Of a stretch of 64,000 nt of DNA, positions 31,588 to 57,897 are shown piece after piece. Below the pieces are notes generated by a model. The model did no database searches. It was not told the DNA's origin and worked only from the letters and a program-made list of their open reading frames with translations. Source of the stretch: Dyadobacter chenhuakuii (GTDB lineage: Bacteria; Bacteroidota; Bacteroidia; Cytophagales; Spirosomataceae); NCBI RefSeq assembly GCF_023821985.2, contig NZ_CP098805.1, forward strand, positions 3,844,001 to 3,908,000, in the 5' to 3' direction. Each line of letters starts with the position of its first letter. Position 1 is the stretch's first letter. The position numbers were made by a program, and so were the translations under genes.

Positions 31588-31625
31588 ATAAAAGCCAGGC
31601 AATCCAAACAAGGATTACCTGGCTT
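31588..31625 (-). terminator. Terminator of cassette A
   Basis: Arms 31592-31605 and 31612-31625 pair over 14 positions with one mismatch (minus strand AAGCCAGGTAATCC ... GGATTGCCTGGCTT) and a T-run follows on the minus strand. The arm sequence is almost the same as in cassette B (55374-55406), so the terminator belongs to the duplicated unit. Confidence 0.8.
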
Positions 31626-31663
31626 AATCAAGAGATTTAAACATTAAGCGCAAAGGCGCCCGC

Positions 31664-31912
31664 TCATTCGCCCATCATTCTCCCCTTCTCAATCCGCTGA
31701 AAGAAAAACAGCAACTCTTTAAACGAAGTAAAAACGTCATTCGCACGTCGGCTGTGTCCGAGCTCCGTCTGCGCCGCCATATAGCCGCTGTAAATTTCCC
31801 AAAGGTCATTCATCCAGCTGGCAGCGCTGCTCTGAGATAGCAACTCCGCAACTTCCCGGCCATAAGCCAGATGCCTCGAATCCAGGGATTCGGCGTTTGG
31901 TTGTGTGTTCAT
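31664..31912 (-). CDS. Cassette A orphan protein (82 aa), paralogue of 55434-55676
   Basis: This 82-residue soluble protein is of no recognised family. The central block LAYGREVAELLSQSSAASWMNDLW is the same in the paralogue 24 kb away, followed by (E/D)IYSGYM and a C-terminal DVFTSFKEL(L/M)FFFQRI. It is predicted helical, with several conserved aromatic residues that could form a protein-binding face. No catalytic motif, signal peptide or membrane span is present. The ATG (31912-31910) is preceded at 3 bases by the repeat R1, which the upstream RNA can pair with, so translation may be regulated. The stop of an upstream short frame overlaps this ATG (ATGA). Confidence 0.7.
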   Translation of the reverse strand: MNTQPNAESLDSRHLAYGREVAELLSQSSAASWMNDLWEIYSGYMAAQTELGHSRRANDVFTSFKELLFFFQRIEKGRMMGE

Positions 31913-32037
31913 AATGTTACATTATTAGGATTGGAAAATAGGACGCCCTGTTTTAGGTGTCCTAGCAGATGTAACACCGCTCGGGGAGCTTTCGCCGACC
32001 CCCACCATAACAGGGCATTTCTTGCAAGTTTCTTCAT
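31909..32037 (-). CDS. Short leader frame of cassette A (42 codons)
   Basis: The frame runs from ATG 32037 to a TGA that overlaps the start of the 82-aa gene, so the two could be translationally coupled. It begins MKKLARNALLWWG, similar to the cassette B frame (MKNLASIALLWCG), but a one-base difference at about codon 14 puts the rest out of frame between copies. The DNA is conserved as RNA structure rather than as protein, so this is more likely a leader read by the ribosome for regulation than a working peptide, or it may not be translated at all. Confidence 0.35.
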   Translation of the reverse strand: MKKLARNALLWWGSAKAPRAVLHLLGHLKQGVLFSNPNNVTL

Positions 32038-32056
32038 AAGTTACATTTGATTAGGA
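31916..32056 (-). ncRNA. Structured RNA leader, cassette A
   Basis: Reading the minus strand: P1 GCCCTGT (32016-32010) with ACAGGGC (31951-31945); P2 GGTG (32006-32003) with CACC (31959-31956); P3 GGGG-GGC capped by GAAA and closed by GC-CCCC (32002-31983). A single-stranded segment R2, GTTACATCTGCTAGGA (31975-31960), is complementary to R3 (32056-32040, just before the short leader frame ATG) and to R1 (31930-31916, just before the 82-aa gene ATG): TCCTA and ATGTAAC match in both. R2 can therefore block one or the other start. The same layout, with changed but matching sequence, is present in cassette B. Not recognised as a known riboswitch class. Confidence 0.65.
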
Positions 32057-32065
32057 GCTTGAATG

Positions 32066-32091
32066 TTCGGAAGAAATTTGGAGAAATGCAA
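32066..32091 (-). repeat. 26-bp block shared by both cassettes (A copy)
   Basis: This block is identical, base for base, to 55832-55857. On the minus strand it reads from TTGCATTTCTCC to TTTCTTCCGAA and ends 10 bases before R3. Its place directly upstream of the RNA leader suggests a promoter or regulator site, though it does not match TAnnTTTG; an alternative sigma factor is possible. The DNA beyond it (higher coordinates) differs between the loci. Confidence 0.7.
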
Positions 32092-32238
32092 ATGTTATGG
32101 CGGGGTACCTTGTAAATACATAGGTGATCTTATAAGCAATCGATATATACTGCTAAATAATTAAATTTTATAATTAGCTCTCTTAATAAATATTTATGTT
32201 GCTTTAAGCAAAACGGAAAATTAATTATTCCTTTACAA

Positions 32239-32442: not shown

Positions 32443-32919
32443 ATGAGCAAAAAAATCAATAATGTATTGATTGAAAGAGTAAACCATCTAATAGAACTGG
32501 CAAACAAGTCACTTGCAACTAAGTTTACAACAGAAGATAGTTTTCATTGGTATAATTGGGTTTCTCATGAATCCTTTTATGAATTTCAGACTGCATCTCA
32601 ATCATTTATATTAAATGTTTATGGTGAGAACAGCCCTTATCTCAGCCAATTCAAGCAGTCGATTGTAAATAATAAATACGAGCAGGTTTTGGCTGGCAAA
32701 GGCATTATAAATTCCATAAAAACTGAAATTGAGAATGGCTGGCTAGGAACGTTGAAGGGATTAATGTCCTCAGAAATTTTTAGTGACTTTCTGGAAATGT
32801 CTCAACATTTATTGGACGAAAACTACAAAGATCCAGCTGCTGTAATGATTGGGAGCGTCCTTGAAGAGCATTTACGGCAATTATCGCTAAAACATGGTAT
32901 TCCTATTAACGAAATGTGA
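32443..32919 (+). pseudogene. Probable 3'-truncated DUF4145-like protein
   Basis: This 158-residue frame has a helical N-terminal domain and ends with AAVMIGSVLEEHLRQLSLKHGIPINEM then a stop. In DUF4145-like proteins, often found with defence genes, the segment GSVLEEHLR is normally followed by a further C-terminal region carrying a conserved Arg-Asn-x-x-(A/G)-H motif; that part is missing here and is not found in other frames before the convergent DUF4180 gene. I infer loss of the 3' part by recombination. Base composition is visibly A+T-richer than the surrounding genes, a sign of acquisition. A natural short form cannot be excluded. Confidence 0.5.
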
Positions 32920-32980: not shown

Positions 32981-33343
32981 CTATACTTTCGCAAACCTCT
33001 CCAACGCCTCAGAAACGCCACCTAAAAAATTAACCCTCCCACCGCGGTTACTTTCCCTAATAAAATCCTGAATGCTCTTTCCGGAATATTTGTCAAAGTC
33101 GCCGATGATAGCCAGGCGCATTCGGTAGTTGGAGAATTTTTGAAGGATTTCTCCGGCGATGCCGGTTTTTAGGTCGAAGAAGGAGGATGTGATGTTTGCT
33201 TCGTCAAGGATAATGCTGTCAAAGCCTTGGTAATAAAGGTTTCCAAGCAAGTCCAGTCCATCTTCGGCTGTTTCGATAATCAGCTTGTCAGAAGTGACTT
33301 CTGCGATCTGGACTTCGCCCGCAGTATGGGATATAATGTTCAT
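32981..33343 (-). CDS. DUF4180 protein
   Basis: This 120-residue protein is taken from ATG 33343 (MNIISHTAGEVQIAEVTSD); the frame is open further upstream but the extension is basic and unlike the family. The sequence LIIETAEDGLDLLGNLYYQGFDSIILDEANITSSFFDLKTGIAGEILQKFSNYRMRLAIIGDF is characteristic of DUF4180, a small family of unknown function found across bacteria, often as a single gene. The Ile/Leu-rich strands and the IIGDF and SIQDFIRESNRG segments are well kept. It converges on the truncated gene at 32443-32919. Confidence 0.75.
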   Translation of the reverse strand: MNIISHTAGEVQIAEVTSDKLIIETAEDGLDLLGNLYYQGFDSIILDEANITSSFFDLKTGIAGEILQKFSNYRMRLAIIGDFDKYSGKSIQDFIRESNRGGRVNFLGGVSEALERFAKV

Positions 33344-33523
33344 TGTAATGTAAGATAGAAGTAATTGGGTCAAGCAAATTTTCGTCTTTTTGACCCAATT
33401 AACAAAACGTTTACACATTTAGGGATGCCTGCTCAGAGGGACAATCGCTGGTAATCGGTTGCTCCGCCCCTCCCCCTGGCGTGATAATTTACACACTCCT
33501 TTCTCACACTCACAAAATAACAA

Positions 33524-54463: not shown

Positions 54464-55291
54464 TTATTTCTGTATGCGTTTCGGCTCGAAGATGATCCGG
54501 GCCATAAAGCTCATGCCGTCGTTCCGGAAGTTGGTGGGAATGCCCGTTACGAGCCCTAATGCCAGATTCGATGCCAGAACCAATTTCATCTGTGGCCGAA
54601 TTACTGTGTGGCGGCTCGTGGCCGAAGCCTCATCATTTATCTCAACCCCAACAAAGTTTCCGCTCGGAAGCACGTAATGCATACTGGCATTTACCTGATA
54701 AAACAGCTCGCTTTTTGACTCCTCCGGCGTAAATTCCCATTCGGGACCTGTGTAAATCATGGTGTTGATCCGGCTTCCCCACTTTTTGGCAACAATAAAA
54801 AACGGGCTGACAGAATTGCCTTTCAGCATGCCCCGGCCATGATTCATGGAATAAAAAGAATGGGTGCGAAATTCATGCATATAACCCGCAGCCATTGACA
54901 TCTGCTGCTTTTCGGAAACCAGGAAAGTATATTGAGCGGCCAGTTTCAACCCTTCAACGCGGTTTCTAGGAAGCGCCGCCCCTTCCTGTGCCTGGGCCGA
55001 CCTGTAAAACGAAAACGGCAGCTCTACTTCCAGACCAAGCCTGTTCACGGGTGAAAATTCGTATTCAACAAAAGAATGGTTGACGGTATAATCCTTGTGT
55101 CCTTCAACGCCATATCCGACGTTCCATTCTTTCTCTCCTTTTCTGGCGCCCAGATCACGGATAAGATCCATGTAAAGCGGCTCGGCGTGGCGGATTTTTA
55201 ACGGTTTTGGTTTTTGAACTGTATCAACCTGCGCCGTGGCAGACAGCATTGTAACAGCAAACAGGATCGTTGTGATGATGAAGTTTTTCAT
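54464..55291 (-). CDS. Outer-membrane beta-barrel-like protein
   Basis: This 275-residue protein has a signal peptide (KNFIITTILFAVTMLSATAQ). The mature start HAEPLYMDLIRDLGARKGEKEWNVG is a well-kept block in a Bacteroidota outer-membrane protein family, followed by alternating amphipathic strands (VEYEFSPVNRLGLEVELPFSFY, QQMSMAAGYMHEFRTHS, LVLASNLALGLVTGIPTNFRNDGMSFMARIIFE) suggesting a barrel of about 10-12 strands. Function unknown; members lie near diverse genes. It is separate from the cassette B terminator downstream in coordinates. Confidence 0.65.
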   Translation of the reverse strand: MKNFIITTILFAVTMLSATAQVDTVQKPKPLKIRHAEPLYMDLIRDLGARKGEKEWNVGYGVEGHKDYTVNHSFVEYEFSPVNRLGLEVELPFSFYRSAQAQEGAALPRNRVEGLKLAAQYTFLVSEKQQMSMAAGYMHEFRTHSFYSMNHGRGMLKGNSVSPFFIVAKKWGSRINTMIYTGPEWEFTPEESKSELFYQVNASMHYVLPSGNFVGVEINDEASATSRHTVIRPQMKLVLASNLALGLVTGIPTNFRNDGMSFMARIIFEPKRIQK

Positions 55292-55369: not shown

Positions 55370-55408
55370 AAAAAAGCCAGGCAATCCTTTGCAGATTGCC
55401 TGGCTTTT
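55370..55408 (-). terminator. Terminator of cassette B
   Basis: AAGCCAGGCAATC (55374-55386) and GATTGCCTGGCTT (55394-55406) form a perfect 13-bp stem; T-runs follow on both strands. The arms nearly equal those of the cassette A terminator at 31592-31625. Confidence 0.82.
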
Positions 55409-55433: not shown

Positions 55434-55676
55434 CTACTTTTTCAATTCCCCGATCCGCTGGAAAAAGAACATTAGTTCTTTAAATGAAGTAAAAACGTCC
55501 GTCGCGCGAAGGCTGTGCCCAAGCTCCGGCTGCGCATGCATGTAGCCAGAATAAATGTCCCAAAGGTCATTCATCCAGCTGGCAGCGCTGCTTTGACTGA
55601 GCAACTCCGCCACTTCCCGGCCGTACGCCAGGTGCATCGAATCCAGGGACTCGTTGGTGTTTTGTTGTGTTTGCAT
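55434..55676 (-). CDS. Cassette B orphan protein (80 aa), paralogue of 31664-31912
   Basis: This 80-residue helical protein shares the long invariant core HLAYGREVAELLSQSSAASW with the 82-residue protein at 31664-31912; the N-terminal residues and the last ten differ. No known family, signal peptide or catalytic motif. The start ATG (55676-55674) follows repeat R1 by 3 bases, within the RNA leader. Loss of sequence outside the core but strict retention within suggests selection on the core for binding or oligomerisation. Confidence 0.7.
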   Translation of the reverse strand: MQTQQNTNESLDSMHLAYGREVAELLSQSSAASWMNDLWDIYSGYMHAQPELGHSLRATDVFTSFKELMFFFQRIGELKK

Positions 55677-55679
55677 AAT

Positions 55680-55822
55680 GTATATGTTTTAGGTTTTAAT
55701 AAAAAAATGCCCTGTCTAAGGTGTCCTAACGTCATATACAACGTTCGGGGGGCTTTCGCCACACCCACACCATAACAGGGCAATGCTCGCAAGATTCTTC
55801 ATAAGAGTATATGTTTATAGGA
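55680..55822 (-). ncRNA. Structured RNA leader, cassette B
   Basis: On the minus strand: P1 GCCCTGT (55781-55775) with ACAGGGC (55715-55709); P2 GGTG with CACC; P3 GGG ... GGC-GAAA-GCC ... CCC with GAAA tetraloop, and here AACGT/ACGTT forms an extra helix. R2, GTATATGACGTTAGGA (55739-55724), is complementary to R3 before the short-frame start (55822-55807) and to R1 before the main-gene start (55693-55680) through CATATAC and CCTA(A). In cassette A the same three sites carry ATGTAAC/GTTACAT instead: the pairing is kept while the bases change, which is evidence of selected RNA (or DNA) complementarity. Confidence 0.65.
55716..55802 (-). CDS. Short leader frame of cassette B (28 codons)
   Basis: The frame runs from ATG 55802 to TAG at 55718-55716: MKNLASIALLWCGCGESPPNVVYDVRTP. 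It agrees with the cassette A frame for the first 13 residues only. Unlike cassette A it ends well before the main gene, so coupling by overlap is not shared. A regulatory leader read by the ribosome, or no translation, are both possible. Confidence 0.3.
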   Translation of the reverse strand: MKNLASIALLWCGCGESPPNVVYDVRTP

Positions 55823-55831
55823 GGTTGAAGA

Positions 55832-55857
55832 TTCGGAAGAAATTTGGAGAAATGCAA
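55832..55857 (-). repeat. 26-bp block shared by both cassettes (B copy)
   Basis: Identical to 32066-32091 and in the same position relative to R3 and the RNA leader. Beyond it the sequence becomes A+T-rich and leads into the TcmP gene. Promoter or regulator site is the simplest role. Confidence 0.7.
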
Positions 55858-56042: not shown

Positions 56043-57170
56043 ATGCACAAAAAAGACATAAAACTTAATCTACTGAGCCATTCCGAAGCGAAGGTTCGAT
56101 TACTCAGTGAATACTTAAAGCGTTACATTAACATTATTAGTAATGATGGGTTTACTGAAAAAATCAACATATATGATCTATTCTGCGGACAAGGCCTTTA
56201 TGAAGATAACAAAGAAGGGAGTCCGATTGTAATACTTCGCCAAGTTCAAGATACTTACAAGTTACTCGTTGAACGTAAAACGGATAAAATCCCAAGTATA
56301 GATTGCCAGTTTAACGACAAAGACAAGGACAAGATTGATATCCTAAGAAATGCCATAATCGCACTATCACTGCATAATCCAAGCTCTGGAAATCTTATTT
56401 TAACATCACAAGATTATAAAGAGGAAGTTACAAGACTTGCTAGAACATTTAAAAGGACCCGAAATGAAAAGCACTTTGTTTTTATTGATCCTTATGGATA
56501 CAAGGATATAAGATCAGAACATTTGAAATCTTTAATGGACTGTGGCAAGAAATGCGAGATTCTTTTATGGCTCCCAGTTCAACACATGTACAGATTTTCA
56601 GAAAATGGAACTCCCGAAGCACTCTTGGATTTCATTGAAGAGCTTACGCAATACAAGGAATGGGTGCCGAACGACAATGTATGGAAGTTTGTCAATCAGC
56701 TAAGGGAAGGATTTCAAAAATCCCTGGGCGAAAAGTATTTCGTTGATCATTTTTCAATCAAAAAGGATGAGAAGACCGTTTTCTGCCTTTATTTTTTTAC
56801 AAGCCATATCAGAGGATTTGAAGAAATGCTGGAAGCAAAGTGGGAGATTGATACTGAGAATGGACGAGGCTGGGAATTTTCAGGAAACGTTCCATCCTTG
56901 TTTTATGAGTATAGAACGAACGCATTAGAGCAAAAATTAAAGGCTTATCTTGCAACAAAGAGGTGCTTTAATAATGATATCTATGAATTCACTTTAAGGC
57001 AGGGATATCTACCAAAGCATACAAACGAAATTTTCGAAAGCTGGCAGACGAATGGTCTACTTGACGTTTATTTATCTGAGGGAGTGAAGGCAAGGAAGGG
57101 AGCTTTTTATGTCAAGTACTATAAGGCTGGTGACGCTAACAACAATAAAGTATACTTCAAACTGAAATAA
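56043..57170 (+). CDS. TcmP-like protein (three-Cys-motif partner), predicted methyltransferase fold
   Basis: This 375-residue protein resembles TcmP, the partner protein of Gp37/Gp68 family proteins. The fold is a Rossmann methyltransferase: SAM-binding motif [11 protein letters not shown] with Asp45 and [12 protein letters not shown] (Asp149-Pro-Tyr) as in nucleic-acid amino-methylases; the rest is a helical domain ([23 protein letters not shown]). The gene is followed by the Gp37/Gp68 gene after 1 base, as is usual. The region is A+T-rich compared with neighbours, suggesting transfer. The pair has been predicted, not shown, to modify nucleic acids in conflict with phage or mobile elements. 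Confidence 0.75.
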
Positions 57171-57171
57171 G

Positions 57172-57897
57172 ATGGCGCAATCAAGCATTGAGTGGACGGA
57201 GATGACCTGGAATCCTACAACTGGGTGCACGAAGATCTCTACTGGTTGTAAATTTTGCTATGCAGAAATCATGTCCAAGAGATTGCAGGCAATGGGGATT
57301 GAAAAGTATAAGGATAATTTTGAAGTCCGAACACATCAAGATTCTTTGTTGATTCCATACACCTGGAAACATTCGAAAGTTGTATTTGTAAATTCAATGA
57401 GTGACCTCTTTCACAAAGACATTCCATTTGACTTCATCAAGAAAGTATTTGAAGTAATGAATGATAATCCGCAGCACGTTTTCCAGGTTTTGACCAAAAG
57501 AGCCGAGCGATTATTTGAAGTTCATAAGGAGCTTAGATGGAGTCACAACATTTGGATGGGCGTCTCTGTTGAAAATGAAAGTGTTATGAGTAGAATTGAT
57601 TTCTTGCGTGAGACAAAAGCAAAAGTTAAATTTCTCTCCTGTGAACCGTTGTTAGGTTCACTACCCAACTTAAATCTTGCCGGAATTGACTGGGTTATTG
57701 TGGGGGGCGAAAGTGGGCATAGGCCCAGGCCCATGAATACAGACTGGGTTTTGGAAATTCAAGAACAGTGCAAGGATAGTGAAGTTGCATTTTTCTTCAA
57801 GCAGTGGGGCGGCAAAAACAAAAAGGAAAATGGAAGGCTTTTAAACGGCAAAACGTACGATGAAATGCCCGAAGTATTGCTGCAAGAAAGCGCTTAA
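57172..57897 (+). CDS. Gp37/Gp68 (DUF5131)-family protein with radical-SAM-like Cys motif
   Basis: This 241-residue protein of the phage Gp37/Gp68 family has an N-terminal block with three Cys: Cys19, Cys26 and Cys29 in [16 protein letters not shown], a Cx6CxxC pattern close to radical-SAM clusters, followed by [40 protein letters not shown] and [11 protein letters not shown]. In the literature this family is treated as an Fe-S/radical-SAM-related enzyme partner of TcmP, often close to defence genes, with an unknown reaction. Start ATG is 1 base after the TcmP stop, so they form an operon. Confidence 0.8.

Follow-up and report, generated by a model that had tools for sequence, protein, structure and literature searches.

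What controls the small gene that closes each of two similar cassettes in the chromosome of Dyadobacter chenhuakuii? The cassettes lie on the minus strand of a 64,000-nt stretch of contig NZ_CP098805.1 (positions 3,844,001 to 3,908,000), here called the window and numbered from its first letter, at 32.1–31.6 kb (cassette A) and 55.9–55.4 kb (cassette B). A first-pass annotation had read them as a duplicated unit with a bistable RNA leader, in which a central site, R2, could pair either with a site before a short frame (R3) or with one before the main gene (R1). Both minus-strand loci were confirmed, with the coordinates and the heptamers that it had given. A family search of the whole genome (~6.08 Mb, two contigs) finds the RNA of these cassettes at these two places only.

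Layout and RNA family of the two cassettes

Cassette A opens with a predicted promoter-like element (32060..32092), made up of TTTG (32092-32089), 21 nt and AACATTCA (32067-32060). Next comes R3 (32040..32056), in which TCCTA (32056-32052) and ATGTAAC (32046-32040) are complementary to R2, and then a short open reading frame of 42 aa (31909..32037) that begins MKKLARNALLWWG and whose stop overlaps the main ATG. The structured RNA spans 31940..32019 and contains R2 (31960..31975), that is, the loop heptamer GTTACAT plus TAGGA; R1 (31916..31930; TCCTA..ATGTAAC) ends 3 nt ahead of the ATG of the main gene (31664..31912), which encodes an 82-aa protein, and a terminator scan places an intrinsic terminator at 31588..31625 (stem 31625-31592). 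Cassette B repeats this order, with a predicted promoter-like element (55826..55857; TTG at 55857-55855, 21 nt, then AATCTTCA at 55833-55826), R3 (55807..55822; TCCTA and CATATAC, complementary to R2), a short frame of 28 aa that terminates within the RNA (55716..55802), the RNA itself (55704..55784) with R2 inside it (55724..55739; loop heptamer GTATATG plus TAGGA), R1 (55680..55693; CCTA..CATATAC, complementary to R2 and again 3 nt ahead of the main ATG) and the main gene (55434..55676), whose 80-aa product shares 80% identity with the 82-aa protein of cassette A. The joint change of all three heptamers between A and B is borne out by the sequence readout. Other shared elements held in part: the constant TCCTA is present in R3 of both cassettes and in R1 of A, with ACCTA instead in R1 of B; the "26-bp block" common to the two cassettes covers the promoter-like element, ending 3 nt upstream of TCCTA; and of the supposedly matching terminators, that of A is a scan match, while at B the scan reported none and a terminator-like hairpin, GCCAGGCAATC..GATTGCCTGGCTTTTTT (55371..55408), is visible by eye.

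Is the RNA new? The first-pass annotation had found no named family that fits, and the cmscan search that it proposed overturned this view: both RNAs match Rfam c4-2 (RF02944) above its gathering score, with 55.7 bits for A and 59.8 bits for B against a cut-off of 41. A new RNA family is thereby ruled out. The family is assigned by cmscan to clan CL00128, which we take to hold the C4 family (RF01695) beside c4-2. Apart from c4-2, the Rfam search of both cassettes gave only three sub-threshold matches (MS2, msiK and sraL; E up to 1) and thus no known riboswitch family. A 2017 paper is said to be the source of the c4-2 family. Our literature search on c4-2 found no functional description, and the only mention of RF02944 that it gave is a table in the Rfam 15 paper (PMC11701678). 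That this is a real structured RNA, as the first reading had supposed, is upheld by compensatory changes that keep the consensus fold: in an alignment that took in 65 of 123 unique RNAs, 16 of the 17 consensus pairs show double-sided changes in at least one sequence. The window RNAs agree with c4-2 in both sequence and structure; what is added here are target sites, pairing codes and small genes.

Phages P1 and P7 provide the best-studied C4 antisense RNA, which forms an RNA arm of phage immunity there. The P1 record gives the order a1, b1 (putative), C4 RNA, a2, b2, icd (73 aa) and ant1, and the immI operon thus shares with our cassettes the sequence site–RNA–site–small gene, on the same strand and with two separate pairing segments. 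By position, b' of P1 corresponds to the heptamer, a' to TAGGA, a1/b1 to R3 and a2/b2 to R1; the same complementarity finder, run on P1 as a positive control, recovered the P1 sites. Two RNA segments that are matched upstream and again before the next gene, as in C4 of P1, are present in both window copies. The differences lie elsewhere. The place of Icd is taken by a protein of similar size without similarity to it; P1 immI has an antirepressor, whereas a scan of nine window neighbors for AntA gave no match; and, compared with C4 of P1 and P7 (RF01695), R1 of both window copies ends 3 nt before the ATG, and related genomes hold several chromosomal copies. Judged by sequence, then, the known part of this system is an Rfam RNA family with the P1 layout, and the less ordinary part is its occurrence as multicopy chromosomal cassettes with many nonrepeating codes and with small proteins unlike Icd.

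We consider it likely that an antisense RNA of the C4 type is excised from the transcript and acts in trans, with the start region of the 80–82-aa gene as its target. Each cassette would then amount to a compact C4-type antisense operon that is complete in itself. A single transcript starting just before R3, as suggested by the promoter-like element and by the terminator of A, would carry R3, the c4-2 RNA, R1 and the gene. The RNA would fold alone, presenting the variable heptamer in a hairpin loop beside the nearly constant TAGGA strand, in keeping with the covariation-supported fold, and would be excised as in P1, where RNase P cuts the C4 RNA to about 77 nt (PMC5320573) and where the c4 RNA is called trans-acting (PMC8546580). 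Once freed, C4 would pair in trans with R1 on cassette mRNAs, cover the start of the gene and keep it off. R3 would be a second copy of the target that might, as its most likely role, restrain C4 in the uncut transcript; where the short frame starts at R3, C4 could perhaps also control translation through its own gene. The first-pass proposal of an RNA regulator for the following small gene is thus probably right, and its restriction to a bistable leader acting only in cis is weakened by the fold and by the distinct codes described below.

Pairing between the RNA loop and its two sites

Do loop and sites change together beyond the two copies in the window? In a swap test we took 136 of 137 loci (L054 left out), which yield 83 distinct 12-nt loop strings with one copy each, and compared the summed longest loop-to-site match for own sites with that for permuted sites (10,000 permutations). 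Own sites summed to 523 upstream and 499 downstream of the RNA, against permutation maxima of 392 and 393, so that none of the 10,000 permutations reached the observed value on either side. Loops matching their own site over at least 7 bases numbered 42 of 83 upstream and 34 of 83 downstream, compared with 2.5% and 2.3% of swapped pairs; at a threshold of at least 6 bases the counts were 59 and 52, compared with 11% and 10%. Loop–site pairing is therefore far above chance, and the covariation in further homologues that the first-pass annotation had named as its check is strong. The sites are not kept in every copy, as the longest own match falls below 6 bases in 24 of the 83 loops upstream and in 31 downstream. 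The constant part of the pairing varies with its target: TAGGA faces TCCTA, GGGA faces TCCC and TGGA faces TCCA.

Pairing is also found where the downstream gene is a different one. Among the matches listed, 40 loci have a gene that is in neither main protein family nor a broken member of one, and merging equal loops leaves 35. Their own-site sums (267 upstream, 239 downstream) again exceed the permutation maxima (203 and 189; 0/10,000), with matches of at least 7 bases upstream in 28, downstream in 25 and on both sides in 21, against 7% and 5% of swapped pairs. Six loci have a 7-base match upstream only (L150, L186, L207, L231, L251 and L255), and L143, L165 and L222 have one on neither side. 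L143 and L165 are c4-2-like pattern matches in metagenome-assembled genomes (MAGs) of Deltaproteobacteria, without convincing target sites of their own. A longer upstream pairing, TGCAAAACA..TCAAAGGA, was noticed at L071 and L133.

For the window copies, predicted energies point the same way to differing degrees. For the RNA of A, its own sites come out well ahead (-13.4 and -15.4 kcal/mol, against -7.0 and -5.7 for the other sites), and the RNA of B discriminates more weakly, with -13.1 and -12.8 for its own sites and -11.2 and -9.3 for those of A. Cofolding of the whole C4 molecule with each site gave a delta of 0, that is, no binding energy, as that model allows no pairing of the closed loop. 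A search of the organism's own genome for further target sites gave no excess over a reversed control pattern (6 vs. 17 and 8 vs. 15, with the three cassette matches included in each).

What lies upstream of R3? Of 90 unique Dyadobacter stretches, 85 have a TTG-type motif ahead of it and 70 one of the AATATTC/ACTTAC type, as counted with loose patterns after leaving out 9 copies that could not be anchored; in Flavobacterium, TAnnTTTG occurs in 20 of 30 stretches (5 copies not anchored). Such promoter-like motifs stand a few bases upstream of R3 in both genera, which predicts a position of R3 close to the transcript's 5' end.

Spread, small proteins and neighboring genes

How widespread are these cassettes? 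We found c4-2 in 30 of 48 Dyadobacter genomes, with up to 9 matches in a genome, 1 of those 9 being below the cut-off. A sample of the order contained it in 18 of 390 genomes, 16 of these Dyadobacter, and a sample of the phylum in 11 of 395, 9 of which belong to one other genus, Flavobacterium, with 2–6 copies each. A pattern scan of named genomes gave at least 120 stretches, and the spread it describes is a lower bound; among the matches listed are Pedobacter, Pinibacter, Taibaiella, Tenacibaculum, Capnocytophaga, several Bacteroidales and others, partly as MAGs. The pattern is also present in four viral contigs, all four above the family cut-off, and one contig with the RNA carries an integrase and tail genes. 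In a Capnocytophaga MAG, an AntA/AntB antirepressor gene (L164:3834-4385, minus strand; PF08346, E 3.9e-12) lies upstream of a c4-2 cassette. The association of C4 with phages extends to these cassettes. In Pinibacter, a protein with an Xre/MbcA/ParS antitoxin domain is encoded directly behind a c4-2 cassette (L142:2171-2686, minus strand).

The proteins encoded behind the RNA are diverse. An intact gene follows in 108 copies, and 26 of 134 have none by a length rule and a hand-made list. Among the matches listed, the 192 unique downstream proteins of 60–170 aa fall into 19 clusters; two of these clusters come from the doubtful Deltaproteobacteria loci, and profile comparison links a few of the clusters. 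For the 82- and 80-aa proteins of the window, neither Pfam nor NCBIfam gave a match and PHROG gave only insignificant ones; ten small proteins from other loci had no Pfam match above cut-off, and their PHROG matches had E values of 0.033 or more. The predicted model of the 82-aa protein consists of three helices with moderate confidence (pLDDT 76.5 without and 71.9 with a 19-sequence alignment). Comparison with solved structures gave nothing significant by sequence (best E 0.29 and 0.21) and no match at E ≤ 0.001 by fold. We found no similarity between the Dyadobacter and Flavobacterium families, or between either of these two main families and P1 Icd, and tblastn of one Dyadobacter and one Flavobacterium protein against phage and plasmid collections found nothing. 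Four Flavobacterium copies (L071, L133, L136 and L137) have another family of 90–93 aa, and the 94-aa protein downstream at L118 bears N-terminal YASAD/CASAD repeats. By analogy with P1 Icd, our guess is that the small protein is probably something that the cell keeps silent.

Could the silenced protein be a toxin? In type I toxin–antitoxin systems, a small protein is under the control of an antisense RNA that is encoded opposite or divergent to the toxin gene. A related arrangement, in which the small protein is toxic, C4 is its antitoxin and loss of C4 caused by a phage releases the toxin in an abortive infection, would add a function to the C4 antisense explanation and leave its mechanism as it is; we put it forward tentatively. 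The RNA lies here on the same strand as the gene and upstream of it, as in C4, which departs from the type I arrangement. The reading draws on the antisense control of small proteins, on the several scattered and differently coded copies per genome, and on P1 Icd, which occupies the same place and is annotated in the P1 record as an inhibitor of cell division; the small proteins have, however, no similarity to Icd.

The neighboring genes are similarly divided on this point. Cassette B adjoins a candidate two-gene defense system, PDC-M30A/B, on the plus strand (56043-57170 and 57172-57897), for which PADLOC gives E 1.8e-149 with PDC-M30A and E 1.8e-130/1.7e-131 with PDC-M30B/M41B; the second gene of the pair is a DUF5131 gene. 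Near other c4-2 cassettes, PADLOC models matched PD-Lambda-1 (L276:6391-7716), a Drt2 reverse transcriptase (L277:6060-7550) and an RmrA-like protein (L268:8391-9491), so that three of the five hand-picked neighbors from elsewhere had a match. In total, 5 of ten hand-picked neighbors match PADLOC models and 5 match none. The latter include both scanned neighbors of cassette A, a DUF4180 protein (32981-33418, minus strand) and a 158-aa protein without a family (32443-32919, plus strand); with 54464-55291, this makes three window neighbors without a PADLOC match. Nor does the comparison with control regions establish an enrichment of defense genes. We counted 78 matched models for 140 ORFs around 20 cassettes against 14 for 126 ORFs in 18 of 20 control regions (L298 and L300 left out); this tally is of models and not of proteins, and the difference does not establish enrichment because a single reverse transcriptase is enough to match 72 models at E ≤ 0.001.

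Pairing codes within and between genomes

Are the pairing codes of cassettes that share a genome independent of one another? Among 134 of the 137 copies (without L032, L033 and L054), from 39 genomes, a loop 7-mer is shared by none of 225 same-genome pairs and by 259 of 5,221 between-genome pairs. Shuffling of the genome labels gives 11.9 shared same-genome pairs on average and never gave 0 in 5,000 permutations. When pairs with similar flanks are set aside, the counts are 0 of 217 against 183 of 4,838 (Fisher P = 0.00056; a fraction of 0.0002 of shuffles give 0), where shared sites were called from flanks of up to ~1.3 kb and vertical descent at rearranged sites could contribute to the exclusion. 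At sites with shared flanks, 307 of 383 between-genome pairs have different loops, and codes therefore turn over in place. What appears unusual, from these comparisons of sequence, is that related bacteria hold many cassettes and that those within one genome use different pairing codes. The P1 layout recurs in chromosomal cassettes with many pairing codes: the 136 copies, of which 134 come from two genera, contain 83 distinct loop strings.

Distinct codes among the cassettes of one genome would fit an RNA that acts in trans. They are the strongest indication of such action, and they favor it over a purely cis-acting switch, because such a switch would not require a code of its own for each cassette in a genome. 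A further reading goes beyond silencing: the c4-2 cassettes of Bacteroidota might form a chromosomal self/non-self system. The RNA of each cassette and its two targets would have a 7-nt code in common that is private to that cassette, equal codes would exclude each other within one cell, and fixed chromosomal sites would be the places at which codes are exchanged. We regard this as possible and rather doubtful. If it is true, C4 would silence both its own small, probably harmful protein and incoming cassettes of the same code.

How does the original idea of a leader acting in cis fare against these data? In this view, the partner that R2 finds on its own transcript, R3 or R1, decides between the short frame and the main gene; the covariation of all three sites speaks for it. 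Predicted folds are mostly against it. Leaders of 163 and 169 nt reach their minimum structure in the C4 fold, the heptamer sits in the hairpin loop, and its pairing to R1 or R3 in cis has a predicted probability of ~0 under a ViennaRNA model that does not include loop–site pseudoknots. With the 200-nt version of leader A, the minimum structure from ViennaRNA does contain the R2–R1 pairing, so a switch in cis keeps a small probability.

The short frame gives a similarly mixed picture. An ATG lies 10–26 nt upstream of the RNA in 87 of 99 Dyadobacter copies, and the frame reads at least 40 nt into the RNA in 84 of the 99. Across 65 unique 18-nt starts from this genus, the third position is the most variable one in codons 2, 3, 4 and 6, and is not in codon 5, a pattern suggesting that the short frame may be translated in Dyadobacter. 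The frame is thus common in that genus. In the Flavobacterium-type set, where L054 is counted too, an ATG stands in this interval in 23 of 36 copies and is absent from the other 13. We rejected the short frame as a generally essential part, given its absence from 12 of 99 and 13 of 36 copies and the two different frames seen. Since the leader model also gives no reason for differing codes within one genome, we consider it unlikely.

Least probable of all is that the cassettes are decayed remnants of phage immunity, functionless, kept by chance and spread by recombination, for although 26 of the 134 copies lack an intact gene by the rules above and one array of three RNAs in genome G025 has none behind its first two, pairing is kept far above chance, 108 genes are intact and loops differ in 307 of the 383 between-genome pairs at shared sites.

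The explanation that we prefer, a C4-type antisense RNA acting in trans, has its closest precedent in the multicopy C4-like sRNAs of Acinetobacter baumannii, of which group 1 is described as having many members per genome with a variable pairing segment and as apparently processed (PMC5320573). The likeness lies in the many copies per genome and the variable pairing segment; the difference is that the sections of that paper considered here describe no linked gene with matching sites for the A. baumannii sRNAs, whereas most of our copies carry a small gene along with two matching sites. The cassettes offer many natural antisense pairs for study, and they make two questions directly testable: the role of the upstream a1/b1 site, and the incompatibility of equal codes in one cell.

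The three-RNA c4-2 array of G025 (C30:255986-256657) consists of L036, L082 and L015, with the genes missing or broken behind the first two RNAs. Inspected by eye, the upstream site of L036, ACGAAAC, fits the loop of L082 and not its own, as it might after recombination.
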